DNA of 64,000 nucleotides from Prosthecobacter debontii (GTDB lineage: Bacteria > Verrucomicrobiota > Verrucomicrobiia > Verrucomicrobiales > Verrucomicrobiaceae). Within the stretch, counting starts at the first letter, position 1. Each line of letters opens with the position of its first letter. Below, in pieces: positions 15,752-31,175 of the stretch. Below the pieces are notes generated by a model. That model had not been told where the DNA came from and made no database searches. It worked only from the letters and a program-made list of their open reading frames with translations. The stretch covers positions 63,603 to 127,602 of the forward strand of contig NZ_FUYE01000004.1 in NCBI RefSeq assembly GCF_900167535.1, given 5' to 3'. The position numbers and the translations under genes were made by a program.

Positions 15752-18700
15752 TCATGGCAGCACGAGGGAGGGCATGTTCCAAGAAGACTCTCCAGATCGG
15801 GGTTGGATCTTCAGGAAGAAGCAACGTTGAGCGGAGAGTTTGAGTGTGGCTGTGACATCGGAATGAGTTCCTGATTTCGGTGTCCAGACGCCAGCCGCTC
15901 CACTCTGACGTAACCAGTAAACATCATAGGTGCTCGCTCCCGGTGTTTGATCACCGGCCCACAGTTGAAGCTGATCTGAATTGGTCGTGCTGGTGCCAGC
16001 TGTGAACCCATAGGTGGCGGCAAAGTTAAGCTGTTGAGGAGTCGAGTCTACGGGCCACGGTAGCGCCAGGAGGTTGTGAGTTTGATCCAACGGACGCAGG
16101 AAAGCACCGGTGCGAACATGGCCCGTGAGCGTATAGCTGATGGGAAGTGCAGCGATTTTAACCATCACACCCGTCCCTGGTGGAATGATCTTGGTGTCCG
16201 TGGATGGTGCCTTGGCATCGCCGATCGAACGCCACTCATGCCGTGTGGCGGAGAGTTCTAACCACTGAGTCTGCCAGTCTGTCTTATCGAAGAACAGCAC
16301 CTGATCCGCCTGCGGAGAGACCGTTGCTCCCTGCAAAAGTGTTTTTGGGAACACCTGATTCAGAGTCACATGAGGCCTAACAACAATGCGTGCTCCCGCC
16401 AGATCAACAGGCAAAGTGTGCAAAGTTGAAGACGATGAACTGAGATTTAAAGTGAGCGCTGATCCTATGATGCTGAGGATATCAATGCGATGTCCGGCGT
16501 GAGCACCGTCGCGCACTTCTAAATAGCAGGGGATGCCTGCAATCGGTGTGGAGACTGCACCTTGCACCTGGAGTGTATTGGCGCTTGAAACTTCATTCGC
16601 AAAGCCCGCATAAATCGGAGCATTCACCCAGCTCACGCCGATGCTTTGGCTGCCCACTGAGAGAGTGTGGCGTTGCCATGTCTGGGGGGCGCTGGCGGCG
16701 GTGATGCCGCTGCTGTGAGTCACACGCAGGCGGACAATTCCTCGCTCCAAGGATTGATTGGAGAGATGGCTGATGCCAGACCATGTAAGCTGCTCTTCAT
16801 CAGCATTCAGGGGCACTGACGTTGGGGCTAAAGCCACTGGCTGCCAGGTGACCAAATCCTGACTGCTCTCCAATTTAAAACTCACATCGTTAATGAAGCG
16901 TGGATGGACCAGATGGGCATCCACACGTCCTTCAGGTGTGGCTGTCAGCCACCAGCCTGCGTCGTAACTATTGTCATTGTTGAGTGCATACTCGATCAGG
17001 TCATTGACGTCGTCCCCGTCGAAGTCACGATCCTTCGCGTTAGAAGATCCCAGAAGATCCGTTGAGCCATTCGGTGTGCTACCGCCAGTGCTGCCGGTGC
17101 TCGATTGGGTTCCGACGATTTGAACGTTATCAAAGCTTGCGGTGCCGAGTTCAAGAGCCTGGGAAGAGGTGAGCGCCAATCCGACATACAATGTGGCTGG
17201 TATGCCTTCGAGAGAGATCACGCTGACCGTCGTCCAAGAGGTTCCATTGGAGGACGCGTAAGCTGTAAACGTCTCTCCACTGCGCACGAGACGAACCCAG
17301 TTGTTCGGCGCGGGATTCAGCGCAGGGCCTCCGGCGTAGTTGGTCGTGGCATTGGTCACGGATCTCCACACGAAACCGAACCCATTGCCCGCACCTGTGG
17401 GGGTGGTAAACATCGTGGCGTGGCGGGAGCCGCCAGTGAGATTTTCTCGGAACATCACGCCAGCTTTACCCCATGGGTTTTGATTGCTTTGGGCGGTCAC
17501 TCGAGCACGGATTTCACCGTCGCCGGTTAATTGAATGGCTGCGTAGTGCAGGCCATCTTCATTGAAGAAAATGTCAGAGCCACAACCTTTCAGGGTGTAG
17601 CTGCCTGTGCTGCTGCTGAACGTCGTGGAACCCGCCACCTGACCGTTGCCGATGTCGCGTCCTTGCAGGCTCACCACGACGGGTGGCGCGTAGGTCACAG
17701 TCAGGGTGTTGGAGGCCGTGCTCGCGATGGAGCTGCTATTTTGAGCAGCACCTGCGGGCATCGATATATTGACAGCACCTTCCGAGCCTGGAGTAATAGT
17801 GACGCTGTAAGAGGTTCCACTGCCCGCGAGATTTGAAGCCGTTCCATTGGTGACGGTAAAGTCCGTCAAAGCGACGCCTGTTACGCTTTGACTGAACTGT
17901 GCCTGGATCTGAAACGGTCCAGTTTCGACCGATGAGGACGAACTGAGCGTCACTGCCGGAGGGACCGCTGTTTGTGTGCCTACGATTTGAACATTGTCAA
18001 AAGTCGCCGTGCTCAACTGAGTTCGAGATCCTGAGGTTAATGCAAGACCCACATAGAGGTTGGAGGGGAGCCCCGAGAGCGTCACCGAGTTAACCGTCGT
18101 CCAAGAAGTGCCATTGGCGGAAGAGTAGGCGGTGATAAGATTGCCCGAACGAACTAGGCGAACCCAATTGTTAGGCGTTGCATTGAGCGCAGGTCCGGCT
18201 GCATAGCTGGCAGCGGAATTGGCTGTTGGGCGCCAGACCATGCCGAAGCCATTGCCAGCATTGGTGGGAGTGGTGAACATCAATGCGTGACGGGAGCCTC
18301 CTGTCAGATTTTCACGAAACATCACCCCCGCTTTCGCCCATGGGTTAAGGTTCGTCTGGCTGGTAACACGAGCTCGAATTTCGCCGTCACCATTGAGCTG
18401 CGTTAGCGCATATTGGAAGCCATCTTGGCTGAAGAAAATATCTTCTCCCGCCCCCTTGAGGGTATATACGCCGCTGGAGAACTGAGTCGAGCCAGTGACC
18501 TCTACGGTGCCGACATCTTGTCCCTGCAAGGAGACAACGACGGGAGGGGCGTAGTTAACGGTCACGGTATTGGAGGCGGTGTTGCCGAGATTCGCCACAT
18601 TCACAGCGCTCGAGGCAGGTAAACTGACGGTGACGATCCCTGTGGCTGTCGGTGTGATGGTCACGCTGTAATTCGTGCCGCTGCCAGTGAGATTGGAAGC

Positions 18701-21700
18701 CGTGGCGTTTGTGAGCGTAAAATCGGAGGTGGTCAATCCTGTGACTGCTTGAGTAAAGCTAACCTGCACCATGAATGGGCCGGTTTCGATGGATGAAGCT
18801 GCAGTCAATGTCGCAGCAGGAGCAACCGCCACTTGATTGCCGAGGATCTGCACCTGATCAAAAACCGCCGTTGTGCTTTCCTGTGTCTGGCCGGAGGTCG
18901 TGGCTAGACCGATGTAAACCTGAGTGGGCAAGCCGCTCAGTGTTGTACTGCTCACCTGAGTCCAGTTACTACCATCGGCAGAAGCATAACCAGTGAGCAC
19001 ATTGCCGGAACGAGCCAGACGCACCCAGTTGTTGGGAGATGCATTTAAGGAGGGTCCTCCCGCGTAGGTGGTTGTGCCAGCAGTCGCAGTTCGCCATACC
19101 ATGCCAAATCCATTGTTAGCCGCAGGTGGGGTGATGAAAGTGGTCGTGTGACGAGAACTCGCACCGAGCGTTTCGCGGATCATGACGCCGGCCTTGGCCC
19201 ATGGATTGGTATTTCCAAAGCTGCGAACTCGCGCTCGGATTTCCCCATCCCCATTCAGTAGCACTTGGTCAAAATGGAAACCATCTTCATTGAAGAAAAT
19301 ATCATAACCGGAAGCAGTGACTGTGTAAGTGCCCGATGCGGCATCGTAAGTCGTGCTCCCAGCCATTTGCACGCTGCCGATATCTTGACCTGTCAAAGTC
19401 GGTGCAGGGCTCTGGAAGGTGCGAGTCAAGGTATTGGAGATCGCATTTCCTAACCCCGTGCTGTCTTGAGCCCCATTGGCCATTAATGTCACGCTCGCAT
19501 TGGCGCTGGGGGTGAAGGTAAAGCTGTAGGTCACGCCGCTGCCGCTGAGGCCACTCACGGTCCCCCCAGTAACGGTGAGATCTTCCAAAGTGAAGCCTGT
19601 GACAGGGTGACTGAAGGTGGCACTGACCGTGAACGTTGCACTGACGGTCATGGGCGCGTTGCTGGCTAGAACGACGGTGAGCGGTAGCGGGGCACTGGTT
19701 GGAGCATCGTCGATCTGCTGGAGATAGCTGACGAGTTTTGCCAGATCGGTGTCATTGATCGAGAGTCCTTGGTGTGCCCGAACCGCGTCGGACAAGGTCG
19801 CTGCTGACCCATCGTGCAAGTAAGGTGCTGTCGCCCACACGCCTCGCAGCGTCGGCACATCCAAGCCTGTTAATGCGCCGTTCAGACGTTTGCCACTGGC
19901 TGGTTTCAGGGTGCCAATGTCGCGGAAGACATCTCGAGCACTGTTGGTAAAGCCGTTACCACTGTGACAGGAGGCACAGTTTTGTTGGCGAAAGATTTTT
20001 TCTCCTTCCAGGGCGGTGCTGGTGAGTGTCCCATCCGGGTTTCGGTGTGGGCTTTTGGGCTCGCTGGTCAGAGACTTCACATAAGCGGCCAGAGCGTCGA
20101 GATCAGCACTGATTCCGGCTTTGGGATCACCCAGCGGCTGATTGCGTGTGCCTGTATTGAATTGAGTGTCCGTCATTAGACCTGTGCCACCAGCCAGGTT
20201 GCGGATTTGACCTTCGAAATCATGAACTTCATCGAAGTTACCGGACCAATGCAGCATGCCTTGATTGCCATGACCTTTGAGGGTGATGGTGTTGCGCAAA
20301 CCTTCACCAAACCCGGTGAGATCCCAGGTGCGACCATCGTGCCCTCCATCATTGTGACACGTGGCGCAGGAAATGTACTCTTGGAGAGCCAAACGCGTAT
20401 CCAGCGCATCATAGAAGAGTTGTTTGCCTAACAGGATTTGCGGGGTCAGTTTTTCAACCGACACCGTGCTCAGTGTGGCCTGCGCGCTCGGAGGCTGGGT
20501 GCCGCCGCGAATGACGCTTCCCACATCACAGATGCTGAGGGTGCGATCCATGAAGTTCTGGACATAGAGTGTATTGCCATCGGGAGAAATCGCCAATCCC
20601 TGGGGGGCGCGGCCGACACTGAAGCGCATTAGTTCTTCTTTAGACCAAGCATCCACAATCGCGACAGAGCGGCTGGCTTCCAAGGCGACGAAAAGATAAC
20701 CGCCCCAAGGATCAAAGACGGCCGCGCTCGGCATTCCCGCATTATCGAAATCGATTCGACCTGCGGCATCTTCGCTCTGGCTCGTCAGATTGATTCGACT
20801 GGCGATGGCTCGCAGACTTTGATCGTGGTTCAAGCCGACGCCATTGCGTAGAGATCCGCGCTTGATGTTATCCTGCTTGGAGGGAATCCATGCAGAAAGG
20901 CCGTCTGGAGACAAAGCCGGGGAGCCTAGATAATTCGGAATACCTTTGGCGGAAGTCGGTGTGTCTTCAGCCTCGCTGTGTTGCAGGACAATCAAGCGTT
21001 CAATGGCTAGCGAGCTGGCCGTTAGGACCAACACTTCACCTCCTCGTCCTGTCGTATTCGGTGTTGCGGTATTTTCGCCAGGCACCGCCGGTGAAATGAA
21101 ACGACTTACATACAGCCTCGTGCCTGAGGCATCGATGGCCAGATGGCGAGCATGTTGGCCGATGGATTGGCTGCTAACGGTAGCTCCGGTACTTGGGTTG
21201 AGTTTCAGCAGTTGCCCAGTAGCTTCCAAGGCGACAAAGGCTGCTCCACCGTTCGGATCGAAGACTAGACCGAAGGGACGAGATCCACGTGGTAAAGAGA
21301 TCGTTGTGGATACAGCAAAAGAGGTGTTGCTGAGGATGGAAATGGAGGCGCTTTCCGTATTCACCACCCAGACGCGACCATCGAGAGCTTGAGCGATGCT
21401 ACGTGGGGCTGTGCCCACCGTTGTTTCCGCTAATTTGGTGCGCGTGACGGTGTCGAGGACAGTCACACTATCACTATCCGGGTTAACCACCCAGACACGA
21501 TCGTTGCCTGTTGTGCGGTCTTCGAAAAATAGGCTCGAAGACGAAGTTGGTTTTTTAGCGGTTAGCGCTGCATAGACGATTTGGTAAGCACCGGTGCTCG
21601 TGGTTAAGCCTGTGTTGTCAGTAGCGGTGACCGTGATCAAATACCGTCCAGGGTTGGCGAAGGCATGCGTAATGCTGGTGGAACTGCTATAGGCGGTCGT

Positions 21701-24604
21701 TGCGGAGCCATCACCGAAGTCCCACCGATAACGTGGGCTGGCTCCGCCGGTGCTTTGAGCGGTCAAACTGATGGTGCTTGCTGCTAGGGCGGGCTGAGTG
21801 CTGAGCGGCTGGAGGACCAAGGCATTGTTGATGGTCCATGTGAAGCTGATAGGCACTGCGGCGGAGTATCCGTCGGTCACACTGACGGTCGTATTGAATG
21901 TCCCTGCGGTTGTCGGGTTTCCAGTGATGACACCGGTGTTGGTTTGAATGGTCAAACCCGTGGGTAGGCCTACAGCGCTGTAGATCAGAGCATCTTGATT
22001 GGCATCACTCGCGGAGATCGGCATATTGACAGAGACCCCGCGGACGCTGTTTTGGTTGCCAGGGTGGGTGACCACAGGCGCTGTAGGAAGAGCGAAAGCA
22101 TTGCTGAAGAAGCTCCAAGCCAGCACCTCGTGAGTGTTCGTGCTACCACCGGTTGCTCCAGTAAAGCCCACCCAAGCGTTGGCTCCCACCATGGTAGGGA
22201 GGTCAATGTCGTTCAGTGTGAGAACCGCAGCCGCGGGGCGGTCGCTCACAATGCCCTGGGCGAGGTAAATGCGAAGAACGTTTGAAGGGCCGTCATATTC
22301 GATCCAAAGCGTATGAGCACTGCCATTTTCCAGATCGAACGGCGCTGTGTAAGTGCCCAGGTGCGGGGAGATAAAGCCTCGGGTTAACACACCGATGTGA
22401 TTGGCATTCGGATCTGTGCCACTCGCATAAGTATCTAGTTCGATAGCTAAGCTGTTCATAAGCCCTTCGTAGCCTAAGCCTCCCCCTAGACTGCCGACGC
22501 CATTGAGACGATCATTTTGCAATACGAAAGTCATGCCGTCAGCTCCATCACCAGAGCCATTCATGCGAAAGACGAAGCGCGTGGTGAAAGAGGTGCCAGC
22601 GGAAACAGGCAGCGGATTTTTCAAGAATGCAGTGCCTGCGAGGCTGCTGCCATTAGGAGTCAGTTGCAATACGCTACCGTTGACGCTGGCACTGCCATTG
22701 ATCTGAAGACTGGTGGAGCCACCTGTAAAATTGGCAAAATCTTGGCTGATATTCGCAGGGGTGATGGTCCAGGTGAAATCGGCGCTGGCACTGGTCATGC
22801 CGTCCGTAGCAGTCACGCGTGGGTTGTAGGTGCCGATCGTGGTCGGCGAGCCACTGATAATGCCCGTGCTGCTCTGCATGACCAGTCCAGGAGGCAGTGC
22901 CGTGGCGCTGTAAGTCACCGTACCACTGCCAGGAGCCACTCCATACACAGCCAGTGAGACGGCGGCATTCACAGCGCTGTTTTGCACGCCGGGATTGGCA
23001 ATGGTGACGGTGGTGGCTGGGTCCACTTGGATGATGTCAGCTTCGGAATAAGCTCCGTTCGCACCGATGGCAAAAAGCATCCAGTAGCCAGGCGTCATCA
23101 CATAAGGGTTTGCATGCCCGGTGATGGAGTAAATCCCCGGAGAAGTTTCACTGAAGGGGAGGTTCAGGAAACGGAGGTCCGTATTCATCGAGTGTGTCTG
23201 GGAGGACATCTTGATGAAGCTGAATTTAGTGATGCCCGGTGTGGCACGAACCGAGAAGACAGTGCCATTACCGATGTAGGCGGGTGCTTGGCTGATGACG
23301 GGCCTCACCGCATCCGAACCATCTGCGGCAAAGAGCATGGGCGGCGTGTAAAGTTGACCATCCCGATGATCTGCGCTGTTCCCTGAGAGTCCGCCGCCAC
23401 CGGACCACACGCGGCCATCTGGCAACAGGAGGGCGAGTGAGTGATAGTTGCGCGGCACGCTCATATCGGTGACTTCGCGCCACTGTCCGGTAACGGGATT
23501 CCAGATTTCTGGCGAAAGAATGCTCCCCGTGTCATTAAATTTCAGTCCAGAAGTATTGCCTCCGATGACCATGACCTCGCCTGTGGGTAAAATCACCGAG
23601 TTGGCAAACTGTCGTGCATATTTCATCGAGGCCGTTTGCTTGACGACAGGCGTGCCGCTACGGATGTCGATGGTGAAAGCCAGATTGGTGCTGGTTCCGG
23701 TCGAGCTATCACTTGGATTGGAATTTGTGTTGGATGAACCCCCTGCTACAAGGATAAGGCCCTCATCATAGACAGCAAAGCAGCCTTCTTTCGGGTATTG
23801 AACCCCTGGCACGTTCACCCCACTGTAAGTTAGGCTGCCGTTGCCGGATGTGGTGACCCAGTTCATCTGCCGGGTGGGGCCGCCATGGAAGAGACGCCCG
23901 TCTGGGGCGACGACCATCAGGGGGTGCCAGCGAGTCACGTAACCCGGTTGGCTCACCACCGTCGCCCAATTGATTCCGGACAGCCGTCGCCAGCCGCCGG
24001 AGGCTGTCCACTGTTCAGCGGTATTCGTGCCGCCATCACCTGTGACGGTGAAAACACTGCCGTCTGTCAGGGCCACGCTGGTGTTATACCAGCGACCGTC
24101 ATTCATGTTAGCAATGGCTGACCACTGATTAGTTCGCCAGTCAAAGATACTACTGAGGCGAGTCGTGTTGCGACCACCATTGATGATCAGGCGGCCGTCT
24201 TTAAGAAGTGCTGTGCCGCCGCAGAACATATCGTGGCGGGTGTTATTGATTTCGGTAAACACACCGGTTCCTGGGTTCCACACCGCAGCGTAGGTGAATT
24301 CAGCTCCAACAGGGAAGGTGGTTCTTTGATTGGAGGCAAAGGTCAGGAGGCGTCCATCGGGAAGCGTGGCTGCGGTGACAGGAATATGCGGTGTCCAACT
24401 GATCACGGGGCCCCAGACGCCGACCTGACTCCGCTGAGCAGCTGTTGGTGCTGGCCCGGTCTGGACAATGAAAGCGGGTGCCAGAATAGCGGCGTCAGCC
24501 GCGAGTTGATCTGAAAGACCGTGATCATCTCCAGCCTGGCTGAAGGTGGAGAGAAGGAAGCCTAACAAAATGAAGAGCTGGCGAGTCGGGAGGAACTTCG
24601 TCAT
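15752..24604 (-). CDS. Giant secreted galactose-oxidase-type copper radical oxidase with diheme peroxidase domain
   Basis: 2950 residues with a signal peptide (1-24). Residues ~60-530 match the galactose/glyoxal oxidase fold plus its DUF1929-type C-terminal domain. The copper and cofactor residues are in place: Cys128 and Tyr173 (thioether-linked pair), Tyr387-His388 (RNYHSLALLLPDGR) and His471 (THSMNTD). The residue equivalent to the stacking Trp of fungal galactose oxidase is Gly191, so the substrate may differ. Then come putative-Ig domains, a legume-lectin-like domain (~615-830), a PKD domain, a YVTN propeller (~1045-1370) and a diheme peroxidase-like domain with CATCH (~1412) and CASCH (~1541). 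Three tandem ~290-residue units (starting ~1736, 2026, 2311) each join a LamG-like and an Ig-like module. A DRDFDGDDVND calcium-type loop lies at ~2530. Its start overlaps the upstream peroxidase gene by 4 bp. Substrate unknown. Confidence 0.85.
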   Translation of the reverse strand: MTKFLPTRQLFILLGFLLSTFSQAGDDHGLSDQLAADAAILAPAFIVQTGPAPTAAQRSQVGVWGPVISWTPHIPVTAATLPDGRLLTFASNQRTTFPVGAEFTYAAVWNPGTGVFTEINNTRHDMFCGGTALLKDGRLIINGGRNTTRLSSIFDWRTNQWSAIANMNDGRWYNTSVALTDGSVFTVTGDGGTNTAEQWTASGGWRRLSGINWATVVSQPGYVTRWHPLMVVAPDGRLFHGGPTRQMNWVTTSGNGSLTYSGVNVPGVQYPKEGCFAVYDEGLILVAGGSSNTNSNPSDSSTGTSTNLAFTIDIRSGTPVVKQTASMKYARQFANSVILPTGEVMVIGGNTSGLKFNDTGSILSPEIWNPVTGQWREVTDMSVPRNYHSLALLLPDGRVWSGGGGLSGNSADHRDGQLYTPPMLFAADGSDAVRPVISQAPAYIGNGTVFSVRATPGITKFSFIKMSSQTHSMNTDLRFLNLPFSETSPGIYSITGHANPYVMTPGYWMLFAIGANGAYSEADIIQVDPATTVTIANPGVQNSAVNAAVSLAVYGVAPGSGTVTYSATALPPGLVMQSSTGIISGSPTTIGTYNPRVTATDGMTSASADFTWTITPANISQDFANFTGGSTSLQINGSASVNGSVLQLTPNGSSLAGTAFLKNPLPVSAGTSFTTRFVFRMNGSGDGADGMTFVLQNDRLNGVGSLGGGLGYEGLMNSLAIELDTYASGTDPNANHIGVLTRGFISPHLGTYTAPFDLENGSAHTLWIEYDGPSNVLRIYLAQGIVSDRPAAAVLTLNDIDLPTMVGANAWVGFTGATGGSTNTHEVLAWSFFSNAFALPTAPVVTHPGNQNSVRGVSVNMPISASDANQDALIYSAVGLPTGLTIQTNTGVITGNPTTAGTFNTTVSVTDGYSAAVPISFTWTINNALVLQPLSTQPALAASTISLTAQSTGGASPRYRWDFGDGSATTAYSSSTSITHAFANPGRYLITVTATDNTGLTTSTGAYQIVYAALTAKKPTSSSSLFFEDRTTGNDRVWVVNPDSDSVTVLDTVTRTKLAETTVGTAPRSIAQALDGRVWVVNTESASISILSNTSFAVSTTISLPRGSRPFGLVFDPNGGAAFVALEATGQLLKLNPSTGATVSSQSIGQHARHLAIDASGTRLYVSRFISPAVPGENTATPNTTGRGGEVLVLTASSLAIERLIVLQHSEAEDTPTSAKGIPNYLGSPALSPDGLSAWIPSKQDNIKRGSLRNGVGLNHDQSLRAIASRINLTSQSEDAAGRIDFDNAGMPSAAVFDPWGGYLFVALEASRSVAIVDAWSKEELMRFSVGRAPQGLAISPDGNTLYVQNFMDRTLSICDVGSVIRGGTQPPSAQATLSTVSVEKLTPQILLGKQLFYDALDTRLALQEYISCATCHNDGGHDGRTWDLTGFGEGLRNTITLKGHGNQGMLHWSGNFDEVHDFEGQIRNLAGGTGLMTDTQFNTGTRNQPLGDPKAGISADLDALAAYVKSLTSEPKSPHRNPDGTLTSTALEGEKIFRQQNCASCHSGNGFTNSARDVFRDIGTLKPASGKRLNGALTGLDVPTLRGVWATAPYLHDGSAATLSDAVRAHQGLSINDTDLAKLVSYLQQIDDAPTSAPLPLTVVLASNAPMTVSATFTVSATFSHPVTGFTLEDLTVTGGTVSGLSGSGVTYSFTFTPSANASVTLMANGAQDSTGLGNAISNTLTRTFQSPAPTLTGQDIGSVQMAGSTTYDAASGTYTVTASGYDIFFNEDGFHFDQVLLNGDGEIRARVRSFGNTNPWAKAGVMIRETLGASSRHTTTFITPPAANNGFGMVWRTATAGTTTYAGGPSLNASPNNWVRLARSGNVLTGYASADGSNWTQVSSTTLSGLPTQVYIGLATTSGQTQESTTAVFDQVQILGNQVAVAPAATLTAASSIETGPFMVQVSFTQAVTGLTTSDFTLTNATASNLTGSGTNYSVTITPTATGIVTVSLPASSAVNVANLGNTASNTVTVNYAPPVVVSLQGQDVGTVEVTGSTQFSSGVYTLKGAGEDIFFSQDGFQYALTQLNGDGEIRARVTSQTNLNPWAKAGVMFRENLTGGSRHALMFTTPTNAGNGFGMVWRPTANSAASYAAGPALNATPNNWVRLVRSGNLITAYSSANGTSWTTVNSVTLSGLPSNLYVGLALTSGSRTQLSTATFDNVQIVGTQTAVPPAVTLSSSSSVETGPFQIQAQFSQSVTGVALTDFTVTNGTASNLAGSGTSYSVTITPGSEGAVNISMPAGAAQNSSSIASTASNTLTVTYAPPVVVSLQGRDIGNGQVAGSTTFSSSTGSYTLKGCGSDIFFNEDGLHYAAIQLTGDGEIRARVTAQSNQNPWGKAGVMFRENLTGGSRHATMFTTPTGAGNGFGFVWRSVTNATTNYAGGPALNPAPNNWVRLVRSGETFTAYASSNGTSWTTVSVISLEGIPATLYVGLALTSSQALELGTASFDNVQIVGTQSSTGSTGGSTPNGSTDLLGSSNAKDRDFDGDDVNDLIEYALNNDNSYDAGWWLTATPEGRVDAHLVHPRFINDVSFKLESSQDLVTWQPVALAPTSVPLNADEEQLTWSGISHLSNQSLERGIVRLRVTHSSGITAASAPQTWQRHTLSVGSQSIGVSWVNAPIYAGFANEVSSANTLQVQGAVSTPIAGIPCYLEVRDGAHAGHRIDILSIIGSALTLNLSSSSSTLHTLPVDLAGARIVVRPHVTLNQVFPKTLLQGATVSPQADQVLFFDKTDWQTQWLELSATRHEWRSIGDAKAPSTDTKIIPPGTGVMVKIAALPISYTLTGHVRTGAFLRPLDQTHNLLALPWPVDSTPQQLNFAATYGFTAGTSTTNSDQLQLWAGDQTPGASTYDVYWLRQSGAAGVWTPKSGTHSDVTATLKLSAQRCFFLKIQPRSGESSWNMPSLVLP
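17090..19400. repeat. Three tandem ~870-bp intragenic repeats
   Basis: Within the giant oxidase gene, three successive units begin with GQD(I/V)G or GRDIG (about 19395, 18525 and 17670, reading leftward). Each contains NGDGEIRARV-like or TGDGEIRARV-like, NPWAKAGVM-like and NNWVRL segments followed by an Ig-like linker; the last unit lacks the trailing Ig part. Protein and DNA similarity are both high, so the array arose by tandem duplication and may vary in copy number between strains or be mis-assembled from short reads. Confidence 0.75.
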
Positions 24605-26334
24605 GGTGTATGGACAATCTTGGGCTTGGCTGGCGGAGAGACGAACTCTTCGTCTGTGAGGGTCTTGAGGAAGGCAACCAGAGCCCGCTTTTCGTCATCG
24701 GTGAGTCGCAGCCCTTCGACGGGGTGTTTGGCTAGATTGGGATCGAGGGTTTCGCTGCGTTGTACTCCGCTGTTGTAGTGCTCCACCACTTCTTCCAACG
24801 TTTGAAAGCGCCCGTCATGCATGTAGGGAGCTGTGCGGGCGATGTTTCTCAGGCCTGGAGTTTTGAACTTGCCTTTGTCCGCTGGATTTCCTGAGACTCT
24901 CATGCGGCCGACATCGGCGGGTGTCAGATCCAAGCCATTGTTCTTGAACTGGTGATCGGTAAAAAGCGTGCCGCCATGGCAGTGAAAGCAGTCAGCCCCC
25001 CGCAGTCCGCGAGCGGGATCAAACTCTGTGACAAACAACTGCAGACCGCGCTTCTCTTCTTCGGTCATCAGTGCTACCTTACGGGCCGCTTGATCGAATC
25101 GAGAGTCTTGAGAGACTAGAGTTAACAAAAATTGCTCCAGAGCCTTGGCGATCTTCTCGGAGGTGATTTCTTCAGAGTCAAAGGCTCCAGCAAAATCATC
25201 TTTCAAATCAGCGATCTTAGCCGGGACTCGGTCCAGGCTTTCATTCATCTCATGCTTATCTTGGATAGGGAGTAGGACTTGCTCCCTCAGACTGTTCGCG
25301 CGTCCATCCCAGAAGAAGGAGCTACTCCAGGCCAGATTGAACAGGGGCATGGCTTGGCGGGTTCCTTGCTGCCCCTCAGCGCCCAAACTTACTGGGCGTG
25401 AATCGCTAAACGCTAAGCTGCGATCATGGCAGCTCGCGCAGGATTGGGTGTTGTTGATCGATAGACGTGGGTCATGAAACAACTTCTCTCCCAGTGAGAC
25501 TCCCTCTTGAGTGATCGGATTATCGGACGGTAACTGCACTTGGGGTAACCGGCGGCTGATCTTGAGAGGAAGGGGATGGGTGCTAGTCGGTGCGGGCAGC
25601 GCATCATGTGCACTCATGTTTTCCGTCGGCTGATAGAGATCATAGCGCACTGACTCGAGCGAGAATGCCTTGGAAATATTGGCCCGCAGTTTGGGCACCA
25701 GGGGATCTCCGCTGCGGGAATGGGTGCTATGGCCCTCGTTCGCTAAGTCGATGCCCTGAAGGATCTGGGCAGAATCAAGCTGCAATTTGATCGTGACAGG
25801 GCCACCGCCTTGAAAGTCCACTGGGATTTCGACCGGCACCGTGTTGGGACTCTTGGCGAGATGAAAGGAGTAGCCGCTCAGTTCTTTCCCCGGCTGTCTC
25901 CAACGGCCTTCGATCGCCATGTAAACATAGCCCCCCTGCCAACCCCAATGCAGACCGCAGACGTTGGGGTGCAGTGGATGATCTGGCGGCAGAAGGTTTG
26001 GATCCGCTTTATCCTGCGGTTCAGGGACGCCCACGACGAATCGCACAGCTTTGAAGCGAGAGGCGGGGATTCCATCTGCTTGGGCCACGAAACGTTTTTG
26101 CCCCAGGCTGTAATAGGCAAACCAATCCCTCGATTCCAACCATGAGCCGTCTACGTGCTGAAGAGCTAGGCCTGAGACTAGAAAATCCAGTCTCTCCAAA
26201 GACTCCATGTGGGAATCCGCAACGCCCTGAATGAGCGGCTCAGGCTGGATTTCCAAGTGCATCACCTGGGCGTGCAAGACCCCGAGGGAGAGCCCCCCTA
26301 GAGCCAGCAGGTATCGCAAGGCTTGGAACATCAT
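24601..26334 (-). CDS. Diheme peroxidase fused to an MbnP-like copper-protein domain (MbnP-MbnH-like)
   Basis: A 577-residue exported protein (signal peptide ~1-22). Residues ~25-190 resemble the MbnP family: HPN (122-124), LHWGWQGGY (128-136, with Trp130 and Trp132) and an EG pair after it. Residues ~260-560 are a MauG/CcpA/MbnH-type diheme peroxidase with CASCH (299-303), CFHCH (449-453) and the RTAPYMHDGRF segment (around 504-510). In known systems MbnH is a separate diheme enzyme that oxidises a Trp of MbnP to kynurenine, creating a copper site. Here both halves appear in one chain. It overlaps the copper radical oxidase gene by 4 bp (ATGA). The peroxidase assignment is strong; the MbnP assignment rests on motif recall. 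Confidence 0.78.
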   Translation of the reverse strand: MMFQALRYLLALGGLSLGVLHAQVMHLEIQPEPLIQGVADSHMESLERLDFLVSGLALQHVDGSWLESRDWFAYYSLGQKRFVAQADGIPASRFKAVRFVVGVPEPQDKADPNLLPPDHPLHPNVCGLHWGWQGGYVYMAIEGRWRQPGKELSGYSFHLAKSPNTVPVEIPVDFQGGGPVTIKLQLDSAQILQGIDLANEGHSTHSRSGDPLVPKLRANISKAFSLESVRYDLYQPTENMSAHDALPAPTSTHPLPLKISRRLPQVQLPSDNPITQEGVSLGEKLFHDPRLSINNTQSCASCHDRSLAFSDSRPVSLGAEGQQGTRQAMPLFNLAWSSSFFWDGRANSLREQVLLPIQDKHEMNESLDRVPAKIADLKDDFAGAFDSEEITSEKIAKALEQFLLTLVSQDSRFDQAARKVALMTEEEKRGLQLFVTEFDPARGLRGADCFHCHGGTLFTDHQFKNNGLDLTPADVGRMRVSGNPADKGKFKTPGLRNIARTAPYMHDGRFQTLEEVVEHYNSGVQRSETLDPNLAKHPVEGLRLTDDEKRALVAFLKTLTDEEFVSPPAKPKIVHTP

Positions 26335-26467: not shown

Positions 26468-27112
26468 TCAAATCGCCGTCAGCGAGAAAATAACCCGCTG
26501 TAGGCCCGATCGTTCTTCTTCCTGTCTCTCTACCGCACAACTCAGGAGGCGTTCCATCATCTCGCATTCGATCTCTCGAATCAGCGGATAAAGCTTCATG
26601 AGTTCCAGATAGGGACAATGGTAATCAACGATTCGGAGGCCACCTGTACCGCTGACTTCCACCACGGACATATTGCCATCCCCGCTGCGGAGTCGGCTCA
26701 AGACCAAAGCCTTGTTTTCCAGTCCCTCTTCCTTTTCCAGGCGTCTGGCATAACGATCCGCTCGCGACGCAAAGAAGGCGTAGAGCAATTTTTCGGGAGC
26801 TGTGGCGCCAAACAATCGTTCTGCATGGAAAAGCATTTCCAGTAAATGCTCGGCGGTTGCTGAAGGAAACAACGGATCCAGTTTATGCGTAAGACGGTAG
26901 ATCTTCTCGGGACGGCCATGCGGGACAGGATGCCTCCAGCTATCCAAGTAGCCCTTCTCTGTGAGGGCGTCACAGTGCTGCTTGACCCCCATGTAACTCA
27001 TCTTCATGACGGCACAGAGCTCCTTTACCGTCATCCCGGGTGACTGCTTCAGATGGAGGATGATATCCACCACGGGACTATGCATGATGTCGCGTAGGAT
27101 GGAGAAAATCAT
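26468..27112 (-). CDS. Winged-helix transcriptional regulator, SufR/DeoR-like with cysteines
   Basis: The N-terminal half is a winged helix-turn-helix (HLKQSPGMTVKELCAVMKMS, then the wing with HGRPEKIYRLT). The C-terminal part carries three cysteines in a SufR-like arrangement, HCPYLELMKLYP ... IEC ... LLSC, which in SufR-type repressors bind an Fe-S cluster. A metal- or redox-sensing regulator of the following copper/heme genes is therefore plausible. I start at ATG 27112 (MIFSILRDIMHS); TTG 27184 and ATG 27085 are alternatives. It stands 73 bp after the beta-repeat gene and 133 bp before the peroxidase, all leftward. The exact family is not certain. Confidence 0.72.
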   Translation of the reverse strand: MIFSILRDIMHSPVVDIILHLKQSPGMTVKELCAVMKMSYMGVKQHCDALTEKGYLDSWRHPVPHGRPEKIYRLTHKLDPLFPSATAEHLLEMLFHAERLFGATAPEKLLYAFFASRADRYARRLEKEEGLENKALVLSRLRSGDGNMSVVEVSGTGGLRIVDYHCPYLELMKLYPLIREIECEMMERLLSCAVERQEEERSGLQRVIFSLTAI

Positions 27113-27185
27113 AATCTGAGAATACGATCCCAAGCAGGGAAGCTTGATGGCTGACCTATTCCACGAGAGCCTTTTACCGATCAAA

Positions 27186-30100
27186 TCAAACTGACAAACG
27201 GCGGCGACGCAAGTTCACAAACGCCAGGGCGAGGAACATCAGCATCGCTCGGCTTGGCTCGGGGACGAGCGCCACTACGACCAAGACGCCATGACTGGCA
27301 AAAAAGCTCGTGTCCCAGACTAGTCCAGAACCCAGGCTTGGAAGGTCAAGGTCATACGCACTGTCGGCGGTCCCATCATGATAGGTATCGCCTAAGTTGC
27401 TGGAGAAGGTGTTGCCCGAGACCGCCGTCCAGTCCAGGAGGTTAAAAATCTGTCCTTCAACAGCCGTGAAACCGGCAGGAACCACTTGGATCTTGCCACC
27501 ATTTTCTTGAGTGATGCTGCCGGTGAGACTGAGTTGGTCATGATTGCCCATGCCTGTCGCGTGGGAGAGCACATAGTTGATGTAGCCTGATGAGCCTGGG
27601 GCATTGCCTCCAAAAGAATCCAGGCTGGTGAAAGTGGCTCCAGTGATCTCAAGACGGGTCACAGAACTGGTCTTCAGCGTCAGACTTTGGGCGATGTTGA
27701 GTCGGGCGAGTCCACCAGCACTTGTGGGGTCACCAGGGCTCAGTGTTCCTCCTGCCGCGATTACGGTGGTTCCGCCCACGGTCCCCGTGCCCCCCAAGGT
27801 GCCGCCACTGACAGTGACGCTCCCTGTCGCGGTGGTTTGATTTCCGTTGATGTAAAGCGTGCCAGCGGTCACACTCGTCGTGCCCGTGTAAGTGTTGGTG
27901 CCACGAAACTCCACCTCGCCAGCCCCATTGAGGATGACTCCGTAGCCATTCCCTCCATCATTGATCGCGCCACTGAGGATCGTGCGTGCTGTGGTGTTTT
28001 GCTGAGTCAGAGTGCGTGTGGCACTAGTGAGGGTGACGTTTCCGGTGAAGGTGAGGGTCTTATCCGTAGAACCTGTTGGGATCGTGGTGTCGGCCTGGAA
28101 TGCCACTGCGTTATGAATCGTGACACTCCCACCGCTGGATGCGCGAATGCTGCCGCCTGCGAGAATTAAGGTGCCTGTGCCAAAGGGACCCGAGGTCGGA
28201 GCGTTGGGGCTTCCCACCGAGCTGGATTGTGGCACCACAGAGGCATAGATGGCCGTGTTGCCTGCATAACTATTCTGCTGATTGATCACAAACAGGCTCG
28301 TGCCAAACAGACTCAAACCTGCTGTTCCCGTAATGGCCGAACTCAAGCTCGTGTTCCCCGAAGTGTAGCTGGTGATGATGCCCTCCTGAGAACCGAAAGC
28401 TAGCGTGCCACCGCTGATGGCGCGTCCTCCGGAGCCTGTGATCAGGATAGCGCCGCTGCTGACCGAGAGAACCTGGCCGCTCGCGATGCTAACATCCGCA
28501 CTTTCTAGAATCAGGGAGTTGATGGCAGTCGTTGAGCCAACTGTGGAGGTCGAGGTGATGCGAGTATTGTGACCTGAGGTGAAGGCATTCAGCGTGAATT
28601 CATCAGTAAGATTGAGGGGACGCAAACCGGTGTCCACATTGTAGGTCACGAACGTATTGGCCGTGCCTGCCGTCCCGACTCCACCGGTGGTGCTGGTGAC
28701 TGCTCCCAAGAGGAAAGGAACAATCTGTGTGTTTTTAGCCGTGCTGATTCCAGTGTTAGTGGCAGCCGTGGTGCCGACGAGAGTTGGGGCATTGGTCACC
28801 AGCAGGCGCGAGATGCTGGCGGTGCTGCTGCTATCTTTCCCCAAAGCGATACCCCGCACGAGGGCGATCCCTCCATTGGCCGCTCGTTGCAGAGTCGTGG
28901 TGGTGAGCGTCGCCGTGTTCGTGCTGCCATAGGTAAGGGTAAGAGTCGAAACCTGCTGGTCAAAGCGCACCGTTCCCAGCGTTTCGGTTGAATTTGTCGT
29001 GGTCTGGTCAGAGCCCAGAAAACTCAGGGCACCACCCTGAAGGCTGACAACGGTGGTGTTGGCGAGGCGATCCGTGGCATTGTTGCTGGCTCCTAGATTG
29101 TTCAGGGAGAGTGTGCCGCCGATCAGATTGATCTGGCTGGTGCCAGAGAGGCGGCCATTGCTACCGAGGGTGCCTGTCGAGCCGCCGATTTGAAGCGTGC
29201 CTGCTCGCACCGTCGTCTCACCGGTATAGCTGCTAGCTCCGATAAGGATTTGAGTGCCAGATCCATCTTTGGCAAAGTGGGTTACGCTAGTGCCATTCGT
29301 AATGGCTCCTGAATAGGTGTAGGTGCTGGCGGAGGAAATCGTCAGCGTCGAGGCTTGCGTGCCGTCATTGGTGACGTTCAACAAGGTGCCGTTGGTATGA
29401 TTATTACTGCTGTCTAGCCCAGAGAGCGTCAGCACATGGCCGAACAAATCCAGCAGCATGGGCATGCTTGCCGCAGGACTGCTGCTGGAGAGCACCGTGA
29501 GGCGGCTGGCGGCGTTGATGGCATTGTCCACACCTACGACCAGCCGGGAGCCCACGGTTCCGCCAGAGGCAAAAAGCTGGGTGGGCCCCGTATAGGTGTT
29601 CACGGCATTGAGGACGGTGGTGGAGTCGTTGGCTCGGTTGAAAAACACGGCCCCACCCGCCGCTCCACTGATGACCCCGGAGAGGATCAGCTTACCACCG
29701 ACTCCACCGCCGAGACGTGCACCGGCGCTGTTAACCACAATATTGCCAGTCCATTCAGCTTCGGCTCCTGTCGCCGTTTGGAGAGCGCCATTGCTGTTCC
29801 CGCCATCACCCGCAATGGCAAGCGCCTCGCCAGTGACCTTGATGCTATTTTGAAGCACGATCCGGCCTGAGGTGACTGAACTGCCCGTGGTGGTGCTGCC
29901 AAACGCGTTGTTGTGAGCCACTTCCAGAACTCCGCCGCTGACCACCACTTCGCCCGTGCTCGTGTTGTTGCCCGAAAGGATGAGGGTGCCTGTGCTGACA
30001 GTTAGGGTTCCGCTTTGGGTGTTGTTGCCTGATAGTGTCAGGGTGCCAGAGCCGCTCTTGGTGAAGTTGAGTGCTGCAGAGCCATCCTGAAGGATACCGC

Positions 30101-31175
30101 TGTAAACGGATGTGGTGCTTTGATTCACCGTCAGAGTGCTGGCCACTGAGCCACTGTTGGTGATGAAACTGCCGCCGTCACTGTTCGCAGAGCGGGTAAG
30201 TTGCCCCACCGTTTGGTTGAATCCAGCGAGGTCGAAGACCGAGGCCTCGGTCGGGCTATTGGCGGAGTCCACATCCAGCACGGTGGTTGTCGGCAGCGCA
30301 TTGGAGGCTCCCAATCGGAGGATGCCTCGAATGATCTGCGTCTGTCCCGAGTAAGTGTTGGACGTGCCGCTGACCACCAACACCCCGGCATCTACTCCCG
30401 TGCCAAAGGCTGAAAGCACCAAGTTACTGCCGCTGATGGGGCCACTGACCGTCAGGTGGCCGCCGACCTCCGTGCCAAACCGGCCTCCAGACACAATGTT
30501 CACCGCACCAGCCCAGGTGGCAGAAGCATCCGCAGCGACGTTGAGAGCCCCTGTGAAGCTGATGCCACTGCCTGCGAGTGTGAGCGATTCCCCCGTGATG
30601 ATGACCCCATCGGCCAGAGTTAATTGTGCTCCTGATGCAATGCTCGTCGAGCCCGTCGTATTGCCTAGAGCGGAGTTATGACTGACCAGGAGACGCCCTG
30701 CGTTGATGGTCACCGCTCCGGAGAAAGCATTGTTGCCTGAGAGTGCCAGCGTTCCATTGCCCGCCTTGGTGATGCCGCCACTGGCGATCGCTTCGCTGAT
30801 CGTGGCGGTATGCGTTGAGGTGGTGACGGTGATGATGCTTGCCGGATTCAGAGTTAGCACACTGTCGTTGTTGGCATCGGCAATCGTGTAGCCATTGCTA
30901 TTGAAAGTGATGTGATTGACCTGCACATCACTGGCCAGTTCCACGGTTTCTCCCGTGCCGCCAAAGATGGCATTGTTGCCATTCGTCCAGCCCACCCCAG
31001 CATCCCAATTGAGCGCACCTAGGCTCCAGTCATTGTTGAGGTTGCCTGGAATCCAATTTTGATCTGATTGCGCCGTTGCCACCTGCGCGTGTCCAACCAG
31101 CAGCGCCAGCACGGCTAAAATCGGTGCAAACCTGAAAGGCTTAAGGACAAGATTTACAGGACAACAGCTTTTCAT
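27186..31175 (-). CDS. Autotransporter-type beta-strand repeat protein with PEP-CTERM signal
   Basis: A 1329-residue secreted surface protein. An N-terminal signal (FAPILAVLALLVGHAQVATA) is followed by many autotransporter-associated beta-strand repeats of the type GNGTLALSGNNAFSGAVTI, predicting a long beta-helix. The C-terminus is a PEP-CTERM sorting tag: VPEPS, a hydrophobic helix, and RRRRL at the end. There is no outer-membrane beta-barrel, so despite the repeat name it is probably exported by the general route and sorted by an exosortase-like enzyme. Composition is rich in Ser/Thr/Gly. Function unknown; adhesion or surface-layer roles are common guesses. Confidence 0.85.
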   Translation of the reverse strand: MKSCCPVNLVLKPFRFAPILAVLALLVGHAQVATAQSDQNWIPGNLNNDWSLGALNWDAGVGWTNGNNAIFGGTGETVELASDVQVNHITFNSNGYTIADANNDSVLTLNPASIITVTTSTHTATISEAIASGGITKAGNGTLALSGNNAFSGAVTINAGRLLVSHNSALGNTTGSTSIASGAQLTLADGVIITGESLTLAGSGISFTGALNVAADASATWAGAVNIVSGGRFGTEVGGHLTVSGPISGSNLVLSAFGTGVDAGVLVVSGTSNTYSGQTQIIRGILRLGASNALPTTTVLDVDSANSPTEASVFDLAGFNQTVGQLTRSANSDGGSFITNSGSVASTLTVNQSTTSVYSGILQDGSAALNFTKSGSGTLTLSGNNTQSGTLTVSTGTLILSGNNTSTGEVVVSGGVLEVAHNNAFGSTTTGSSVTSGRIVLQNSIKVTGEALAIAGDGGNSNGALQTATGAEAEWTGNIVVNSAGARLGGGVGGKLILSGVISGAAGGAVFFNRANDSTTVLNAVNTYTGPTQLFASGGTVGSRLVVGVDNAINAASRLTVLSSSSPAASMPMLLDLFGHVLTLSGLDSSNNHTNGTLLNVTNDGTQASTLTISSASTYTYSGAITNGTSVTHFAKDGSGTQILIGASSYTGETTVRAGTLQIGGSTGTLGSNGRLSGTSQINLIGGTLSLNNLGASNNATDRLANTTVVSLQGGALSFLGSDQTTTNSTETLGTVRFDQQVSTLTLTYGSTNTATLTTTTLQRAANGGIALVRGIALGKDSSSTASISRLLVTNAPTLVGTTAATNTGISTAKNTQIVPFLLGAVTSTTGGVGTAGTANTFVTYNVDTGLRPLNLTDEFTLNAFTSGHNTRITSTSTVGSTTAINSLILESADVSIASGQVLSVSSGAILITGSGGRAISGGTLAFGSQEGIITSYTSGNTSLSSAITGTAGLSLFGTSLFVINQQNSYAGNTAIYASVVPQSSSVGSPNAPTSGPFGTGTLILAGGSIRASSGGSVTIHNAVAFQADTTIPTGSTDKTLTFTGNVTLTSATRTLTQQNTTARTILSGAINDGGNGYGVILNGAGEVEFRGTNTYTGTTSVTAGTLYINGNQTTATGSVTVSGGTLGGTGTVGGTTVIAAGGTLSPGDPTSAGGLARLNIAQSLTLKTSSVTRLEITGATFTSLDSFGGNAPGSSGYINYVLSHATGMGNHDQLSLTGSITQENGGKIQVVPAGFTAVEGQIFNLLDWTAVSGNTFSSNLGDTYHDGTADSAYDLDLPSLGSGLVWDTSFFASHGVLVVVALVPEPSRAMLMFLALAFVNLRRRRLSV

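Follow-up and report, generated by a model that had tools for sequence, protein, structure and literature searches.

Why would a copper radical oxidase and a diheme domain related to bacterial peroxidases be carried on one polypeptide? The question is raised by a giant protein encoded in a 64,000-nucleotide stretch of Prosthecobacter debontii DNA (GCF_900167535.1, contig NZ_FUYE01000004.1, positions 63,603 to 127,602), hereafter the window, whose first letter is position 1 for all coordinates given here. The protein is almost certainly, judging from its residues and domain matches, a fusion of a copper oxidase with conserved copper ligands and a diheme domain, and such oxidase-diheme fusions are a conserved family. 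In the window the gene overlaps an upstream gene for a fused MbnP-MbnH protein, and the hemes may serve the oxidase as a redox partner while MbnP-MbnH supplies its copper.

Domain Organization of the Giant Oxidase

A sequence-only reading of the window had placed copper radical oxidase and diheme peroxidase in a single 2950-residue chain, leaving its strand unstated. The chain is an uninterrupted open reading frame (ORF) on the minus strand, and its parts are as follows (aa, amino acids).

24604..15752, minus strand: giant oxidase ORF, 2950 aa, no internal stop
24533..24604, minus strand: N-terminal hydrophobic segment, aa 1-24, read by eye from the translation as an export signal
23018..24439, minus strand: copper radical oxidase domain of the galactose-oxidase fold, aa 56-529, from PDB sequence matches to 9g43 and 1gof
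23024..23305, minus strand: GO-like_E_set (PF09118, which we take to be the former DUF1929), aa 434-527, 58.5 bits against a cut-off of 25
22097..22741, minus strand: legume-lectin-like domain, aa 622-836, PF00139 E value 1.1e-34
21581..21784, minus strand: PKD domain, aa 941-1008, from the Pfam search
20510..21559, minus strand: YVTN-type beta-propeller, aa ~1016-1365, from sequence searches and an AlphaFold2 (AF2) model
19676..20455, minus strand: diheme domain of the CCP/MauG superfamily, aa 1384-1643, from PF03150, Cytochrom_C and PDB matches
17117..19678, minus strand: three Big_12 plus DUF1349 units, aa 1643-2496, from the Pfam search

Two He_PIG stretches lie between the lectin and PKD domains in the Pfam search (the better at aa 842-926), and the part beyond aa 2496 matches no named family in Pfam, NCBIfam and PDB sequence searches. 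The legume lectin and the three DUF1349 stretches bear out the lectin-like modules that had been described. The chain has 10 Cys residues and exactly two CxxCH motifs, at aa 1413-1417 and 1543-1547, as had been reported. In the host genome (56 contigs) it is the sole GO-like_E_set match, and the adjoining gene is the sole MbnP match.

Active Site of the Oxidase Domain

The oxidase domain matches the solved galactose oxidase 9g43 over aa 61-527 with an E value of 5.8e-98 and the fungal galactose oxidase 1gof over aa 56-527 with 8.2e-61. It has the kelch propeller with a C-terminal E-set domain of AA5-like copper radical oxidases, and a second-sphere stacking aromatic, Trp172. Conservation was counted over 68 alignment rows, those not classed as non-fused (L and G numbers are our labels for loci and genomes).

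24221..24223, minus strand: Cys128, thioether partner of Tyr173; Cys in 66/68, Ala in 2/68
24086..24091, minus strand: Trp172-Tyr173, stacking Trp in the GlxA/aldehyde-oxidase position and cross-linked Tyr; each 68/68
23441..23446, minus strand: Tyr387-His388, predicted copper ligands; each 68/68
23192..23194, minus strand: His471, predicted copper ligand; 67/68, one gap

These five cofactor residues, found at the numbers that the sequence-only reading had given them, are invariant in the seven closest sequences and complete in 65 of the 68 rows. The set is broken in L081, where the frame stops before the last His, and in L085 and L096, both Thiotrichaceae, where the cross-linking Cys is replaced by Ala. 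The two Cys losses would suit a kelch protein whose copper site does not function, the outcome that had been named as fatal to the original idea. With all five residues in the window protein, their retention in nearly every row and the very low E value to 9g43, that explanation is extremely improbable.

A different claim did not survive, namely that Gly replaces the usual stacking Trp. The Gly that precedes the cross-linked Tyr in 9g43 aligns with Trp172 of the window protein, and this alignment, those to GlxA and the invariance of Trp172 rule the substitution out. The GlxA chain 4unm has Trp directly before the cross-linked Tyr, and 5lxz, the same protein and presumably its Trp288 variant, has Ala there. 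The column of the galactose-oxidase stacking Trp (Trp290 in the numbering of PMC13094651) reads "HAW" in 9g43 and "WHPL" in the window protein, with Leu229 at the position itself and Phe, Leu or Tyr in 61 of the 68 rows. In FgrAldOx and GlxA, W509 and W288, respectively, fill the stacking role from the position before the Tyr in a flipped orientation, and a link of this arrangement to aldehyde oxidation has been proposed (PMC13094651). Because the stacking Trp stands in the aldehyde-oxidase position, the best guess at a substrate shifts to small aldehydes; Trp172 points to aldehydes, where the supposed Gly had been taken to suggest a new substrate.

The Propeller-Diheme Half

The diheme domain was recovered by several searches. 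PF03150 covers aa 1389-1462 with the N-terminal half of the model (43.4 bits against a cut-off of 25.6); this CCP-type family and GO-like_E_set, two of the model types proposed as a check, both score above their Pfam cut-offs. Cytochrom_C covers aa 1533-1631 (31.9 bits against 21.3). Searched alone, the domain gives as its best three PDB matches 3o5c (E 7e-17), 1iqc (E 1.5e-16) and 5c2v_C (E 3e-15). Conservation was counted over 46 sequences: that of the window protein and 45 drawn from 58 available propeller-diheme pieces.

20354..20368, minus strand: first heme motif CATCH, aa 1413-1417; both Cys and the His 46/46
19964..19978, minus strand: second heme motif CASCH, aa 1543-1547; both Cys and the His 46/46
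19772..19774, minus strand: His1611, at the ligand position of the C-terminal heme held by Met in CCP and Tyr294 in MauG; His 45/46, from alignments to 1iqc and 3o5c

Both CxxCH motifs fall within the CCP/MauG-type match, and the fear that they might lie outside a peroxidase fold was not borne out. His1452, Trp1453, Glu1459, Asp1462 and Glu1464 are each present in 46/46. In the AF2 model of propeller plus diheme (mean predicted local distance difference test, pLDDT, 90.3; predicted template modelling score, pTM, 0.91) the propeller superposes on 1l0q_A (Z 37.4, root-mean-square deviation, rmsd, 1.6, 283 residues aligned) and on hydrazine synthase 5c2v_B (Z 35.8, rmsd 1.9, 305 aligned). Among the 50 matches listed there was no diheme chain except 6rtd (NirN), itself matching as a propeller; because propellers filled the match list, the diheme fold was barely tested by structure comparison.

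Whether the domain is a peroxidase is less certain than its superfamily. The Met in the C-terminal half of 3o5c and 1iqc that aligns with His1611 is presumably a heme ligand; the position has neither the Met of bacterial diheme CCPs nor the Tyr of MauG and MbnH. The exception is L096, which by motif spacing reads Met; it is the only one of the two loci lacking the Cys that has a full diheme domain. The match to MauG 3orv (titled Y294H) reaches query residue 237 and that to wild-type 3l4m ends at 233, and the longer match to 3orv fits a His at the Tyr294 position. Scores to the NCBIfam models are far under their cut-offs for CCP (41.9 bits against 150), MauG (41.8 against 443.85) and hydrazine synthase beta-gamma (NF052342, 69.3 against 1250). 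Of the "peroxidase" in the sequence-only reading, then, the CCP/MauG-superfamily domain stands and the activity is unproven. The BthA variant Y463H and MauG Y294H are both without the near-infrared bis-Fe(IV) feature, and BthA Y463H retains H2O2 reduction (PMC6405878). Given the His at the ligand position and this behavior of BthA, MauG-type chemistry by the in-cis diheme seems unlikely and peroxide reduction possible.

Two further roles for the hemes can be weighed on the same residues. The diheme could be an electron outlet, passing electrons from the copper site through the hemes to an outside acceptor, in which case the enzyme would be a dehydrogenase making little H2O2. The nearly invariant His at the C-terminal heme, the resemblance of the module to hydrazine synthase beta/gamma and RoxA-like cytochromes, and its recurrence in proteins without an oxidase (see below) would all suit such a role; yet copper radical oxidases react fast with O2, and all 46 sequences keep the Trp and the acidic residues close to the motif of the N-terminal heme, so we consider it unlikely. 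Alternatively, the diheme might be a MauG-like maturase that builds the Cys-Tyr cofactor, as membership of the CCP/MauG superfamily and the presence of the cofactor in the same chain could suggest. The galactose-oxidase Cys-Tyr cross-link, however, forms with copper alone. Moreover, His replaces the Tyr that MauG and BthA need for bis-Fe(IV) (PMC6405878), and maturation of this kind is very unlikely.

Distribution of the Fusion

An oxidase-domain search at an E value of 0.001 in 387 genomes of the phylum found matches in 14: seven long relatives, one contig-end fragment (G285) and six weak matches of the kelch-repeat type. In all six intact relatives besides the window, oxidase, propeller and diheme lie in one ORF, with an MbnP-MbnH ORF directly upstream. 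A scan of named genomes with two peptide patterns from close relatives was also made, and 80 of 86 tblastn relatives were kept as loci. Given the source of the patterns, and since at least two paralogues (those of L168 and L169) escaped the scan, the locus counts are lower bounds biased to relatives of the window type. Fusion was scored with hidden Markov models built from seven sequences. At 11 of the 80 loci the oxidase ORF leaves the locus before any diheme match and the fusion could not be evaluated; among the other 69 it is in one ORF at 57, split into adjacent ORFs at 2, and absent at 10 (L081, where the frame ends early and the contig then ends, and L104, L107, L108, L109, L112, L114, L116, L117 and L118). 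Since the same architecture recurs in 57 of the 69 evaluable loci, chance or artefact is ruled out as its source, and the survey for the same fusion in other genomes that had been called for has a positive answer.

By record titles, the fused loci come from Verrucomicrobiota, Gammaproteobacteria, Anaerolineales, Rhodothermales, Trueperaceae, Blastocatellia and Myxococcota; most of the non-fused loci are oxidases from myxobacteria, Chloroflexi and Acidobacteria. Most loci outside Verrucomicrobiota derive from metagenome bins, where mislabelling is possible; L086 (Gammaproteobacteria) comes from a named strain, Leucothrix pacifica. In the oxidase tree, which like the MbnP-MbnH tree was a quick search without bootstrap and midpoint-rooted for drawing, the fused rows fall in one branch (Shimodaira-Hasegawa-like approximate likelihood ratio test, SH-aLRT, 90), and two others join them there: L104, which is non-fused, and L081, which is broken. 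GO-like_E_set, PKD and CCP_MauG were each found in 20/20 full-length fusions scanned; other modules vary (PA14, for example, is in 10), and the oxidase-to-propeller spacer ranges from about 170 to about 965 residues.

The Adjoining MbnP-MbnH Gene

The upstream gene, absent from the sequence-only account, has the following parts.

24601..26334, minus strand: MbnP-type domain fused to an MbnH-type diheme enzyme, 577 aa, overlapping the oxidase start by 4 base pairs (bp)
25723..26202, minus strand: MbnP-type domain, aa 45-204, PF20243 at 71.6 bits against a cut-off of 27
24628..25530, minus strand: MbnH-type diheme domain, aa 269-569, TIGR04039 at 244.9 bits

Across 30 sequences (the window and all 29 other MbnP-MbnH pieces), His129, Trp130, His158 and His205 of the MbnP half, candidates for kynurenine formation and copper binding, are each invariant, as are both CxxCH motifs of the MbnH half and its Tyr520, at the MauG Tyr294 position. 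Residues 1-205 of the AF2 model (mean pLDDT 82.8) superpose on MbnP 7l6g (Z 15.9, rmsd 3.1, 190 aligned) and residues 230-545 on MbnH 6e1c (Z 28.7, rmsd 2.2, 301 aligned); by sequence, the MbnP-half profile reaches 7l6g with an E value of 0.045 only.

An MbnP-MbnH gene adjoins the oxidase at 32 of the 80 loci, which by their titles we take all to be Verrucomicrobiota. Of these, 25 have an MbnP match and an evaluable fusion, and in 16 of the 25 the two genes overlap by 4 bp; L055 and L058 have only a cut MbnH at a contig edge, and in L040, L081, L089, L095 and L110 the oxidase ORF is cut or broken. Of the 387 genomes sampled from the phylum, 22 have MbnP, and all seven with an intact oxidase gene are among them. 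MbnP was sought elsewhere in 24 genomes, covering 22 of the 30 fusion loci listed without it (left out were L044, L055, L058, L068, L074, L077, L080 and L106) plus L104 and L107. It was found in 10/10 Verrucomicrobiota without an adjacent MbnP at the listed oxidase gene, in three of which it adjoins a second oxidase copy (L168, L169, and L156, which matches the gene next to L063 exactly); the MbnP genes of L167 and L172-L175 are not followed by an oxidase. The 32 oxidase-linked and 10 elsewhere rows form one branch of 42 in the MbnP-MbnH tree (SH-aLRT 84). In 18 regions with further MbnP genes, MbnP and MbnH share one frame in 17 (L146 is broken); L139 gave no match, probably lost in ORF selection.

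Of 10 chosen neighbors of other MbnP-MbnH genes that were scanned, seven (in L130, L131, L132, L134, L135, L138 and L142) are genes of the YHYH type (PF14240), four of them fused to a sulfatase domain, and YHYH proteins are a possible further client of MbnP-MbnH. The fusions of L086, L093 and L097, all Gammaproteobacteria, have a diheme gene of the CCP/MauG type as a separate neighbor; these loci have no MbnP match, and the L097 genome has MbnP elsewhere.

Farther out in the window, a winged-helix regulator (26468-27184, minus strand) lies 133 bases upstream of the MbnP-MbnH gene; relatives of 77-81% identity occur in three loci, upstream of that gene in L032 and L033, and in L039 at the far end. 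Beyond it (27186-31175, minus strand) a protein of 1329 aa is encoded, which has repeats of the autotransporter type and carries a PEP-CTERM sorting signal. Predicted promoters numbered 5, against a mean of 5.8 in shuffled sequence, and terminators 5 against 10.6, with no excess of either.

A Proposed Mechanism and Its Difficulties

How might these parts work together? The giant protein would be an exported multidomain oxidase that binds one copper through Tyr173 (cross-linked to Cys128), Tyr387, His388 and His471; Trp172 would stack on the cofactor, the arrangement of GlxA and the AA5_1 aldehyde oxidases. Its residues suggest an aldehyde hydrate or a primary alcohol as substrate and H2O2 as product; the lectin-type modules would hold a glycan, which probably carries the substrate or is its source. 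The propeller-diheme half would act as a redox partner in cis: the N-terminal heme would react with peroxide, the C-terminal heme, probably bis-His, would move electrons, and the pair would regenerate the active radical by re-oxidising the resting, inactive Cu(II)-Tyr state, consume H2O2, or both. Copper radical oxidases need added peroxidase for full activity in vitro, and a fungal one is activated by a tandem heme peroxidase through one-electron oxidation of its non-radical copper form, as supported by electron paramagnetic resonance (PMC9770985). The MbnP-MbnH protein would capture copper for the oxidase; the observed gene overlap suggests that the two are co-transcribed as one operon, and MbnH may use H2O2 to make kynurenine from a Trp in the MbnP half of the same protein. 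We give the combined mechanism of oxidase, in-cis heme partner and MbnP-MbnH copper supply an even chance of being right.

Several findings weigh against it. Neither half of the upstream protein reaches its equivalog cut-off (MbnP TIGR04052, 37.8 bits against 140; MbnH TIGR04039, its score given above against 362.85), and the oxidase domain falls short of the GlxA equivalog (NF052501, 145.8 bits against 800). No MbnP-MbnH gene was seen beside the oxidase at any non-Verrucomicrobiota locus among the 80 scanned, and MbnP was found in only 3 of the 14 non-Verrucomicrobiota genomes searched; given this scarcity, the oxidase family as a whole does not need MbnP-MbnH. Conversely, 15 genomes of the phylum have MbnP without an intact oxidase match, often beside YHYH-type genes, and G285, with its contig-end oxidase fragment, has no MbnP match. 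As the genomes are related to one another, none of the fusion and MbnP counts can be given full weight.

The propeller-diheme module, too, has a life of its own. Its profile finds near-full-length matches in 5 of 194 genomes of the phylum, and weaker, mostly partial ones in 70 further genomes (75/194 in all). Two of the five, G187 and the genome of the window, have the module in the oxidase fusion; the other three (G023, G066, G189) encode five proteins with Big_5, PKD, propeller and diheme and no oxidase match, and the module is therefore portable and not dedicated to the copper oxidase. LVIVD repeats occur in three of the five, and one G066 protein has a stop inside the match. In these proteins (L202-L206) the N-terminal part consists of LVIVD repeats or no named family, followed by Big_5 and PKD, and two such N-terminal parts searched against the PDB gave PKD-type matches only, or none. 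The halves of the giant protein could on this evidence be merely tethered, the propeller-diheme being a general surface module with the oxidase as one of several passengers and no direct coupling, and the wide range of spacer lengths would agree. Against this, the pairing is kept at most evaluable loci across several phyla, and L096 has lost both Cys128 and the His at the heme ligand position, a single case of paired change; we regard uncoupled halves as rather unlikely.

The coupled mechanism has a bolder form, a self-feeding copper machine in which oxidase H2O2 drives kynurenine formation by MbnH, making the copper site that loads the oxidase, as the in-cis diheme keeps the radical active. 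This extension is doubtful; if true, it gives MbnP-MbnH a defined client enzyme. Even without it, the probable operon marks the oxidase as a candidate client for MbnP-MbnH, a pair of uncertain role linked to copper and kynurenine. A natural oxidase with a built-in heme partner would illustrate one way in which bacteria may achieve the activation of such enzymes, and would also provide a single-chain biocatalyst.

Comparison With Known Systems

The highest-scoring relatives of the oxidase half are the galactose oxidases 9g43/9g8h and fungal 1gof, which share its kelch propeller, E-set and five cofactor residues. They differ in having no heme domain in the matched chains; Trp172 and Leu229 of the window protein correspond in 9g43 to Gly, just ahead of the cross-linked Tyr, and to Trp, at the Trp290 position. 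Streptomyces GlxA and the fungal AA5_1 aldehyde oxidase FgrAldOx carry the stacking Trp directly before the cross-linked Tyr, as here, although the equivalog score puts the window protein far from GlxA. With bacterial diheme CCP, MauG and MbnH the diheme domain shares two CxxCH motifs, a Trp aligned with that of the FWDG motif and a PYxHDG-type motif; it differs from them by the His at its C-terminal heme ligand position. A YVTN propeller is combined with a diheme also in hydrazine synthase beta and gamma, and NCBIfam has a beta-gamma fusion, whose cut-off the window protein misses by far. The upstream protein shares its folds, a WxW motif and the Tyr at the ligand position with MbnP 7l6g of Methylosinus trichosporium and MbnH 6e1c, presumably of the same organism; unlike these, it is one fused protein and under the NCBIfam equivalog cut-offs.

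MbnP and MbnH were termed "mysterious partners" in 2013 and their role was left unclear (PMC3621798); later MbnP work was not found in the open-licence literature, preprints excluded. The same literature yielded no paper title naming an oxidase-diheme fusion, and the main text of a GlxA orthologue survey contains neither "verrucomicro" nor "cytochrome" (PMC3543389). A bacterial AA5 fusion is known from Burkholderia pseudomallei, where the partner is an esterase-type CE3 domain (cited in PMC11267884) and not a heme domain. The nearest functional parallel is the fungal AlcOx with its tandem peroxidase (PMC9770985), which likewise pairs a copper radical oxidase with an activating heme enzyme; there the two are separate proteins and the heme enzyme is a class II peroxidase, whereas the Prosthecobacter protein carries a c-type diheme domain in the same chain.

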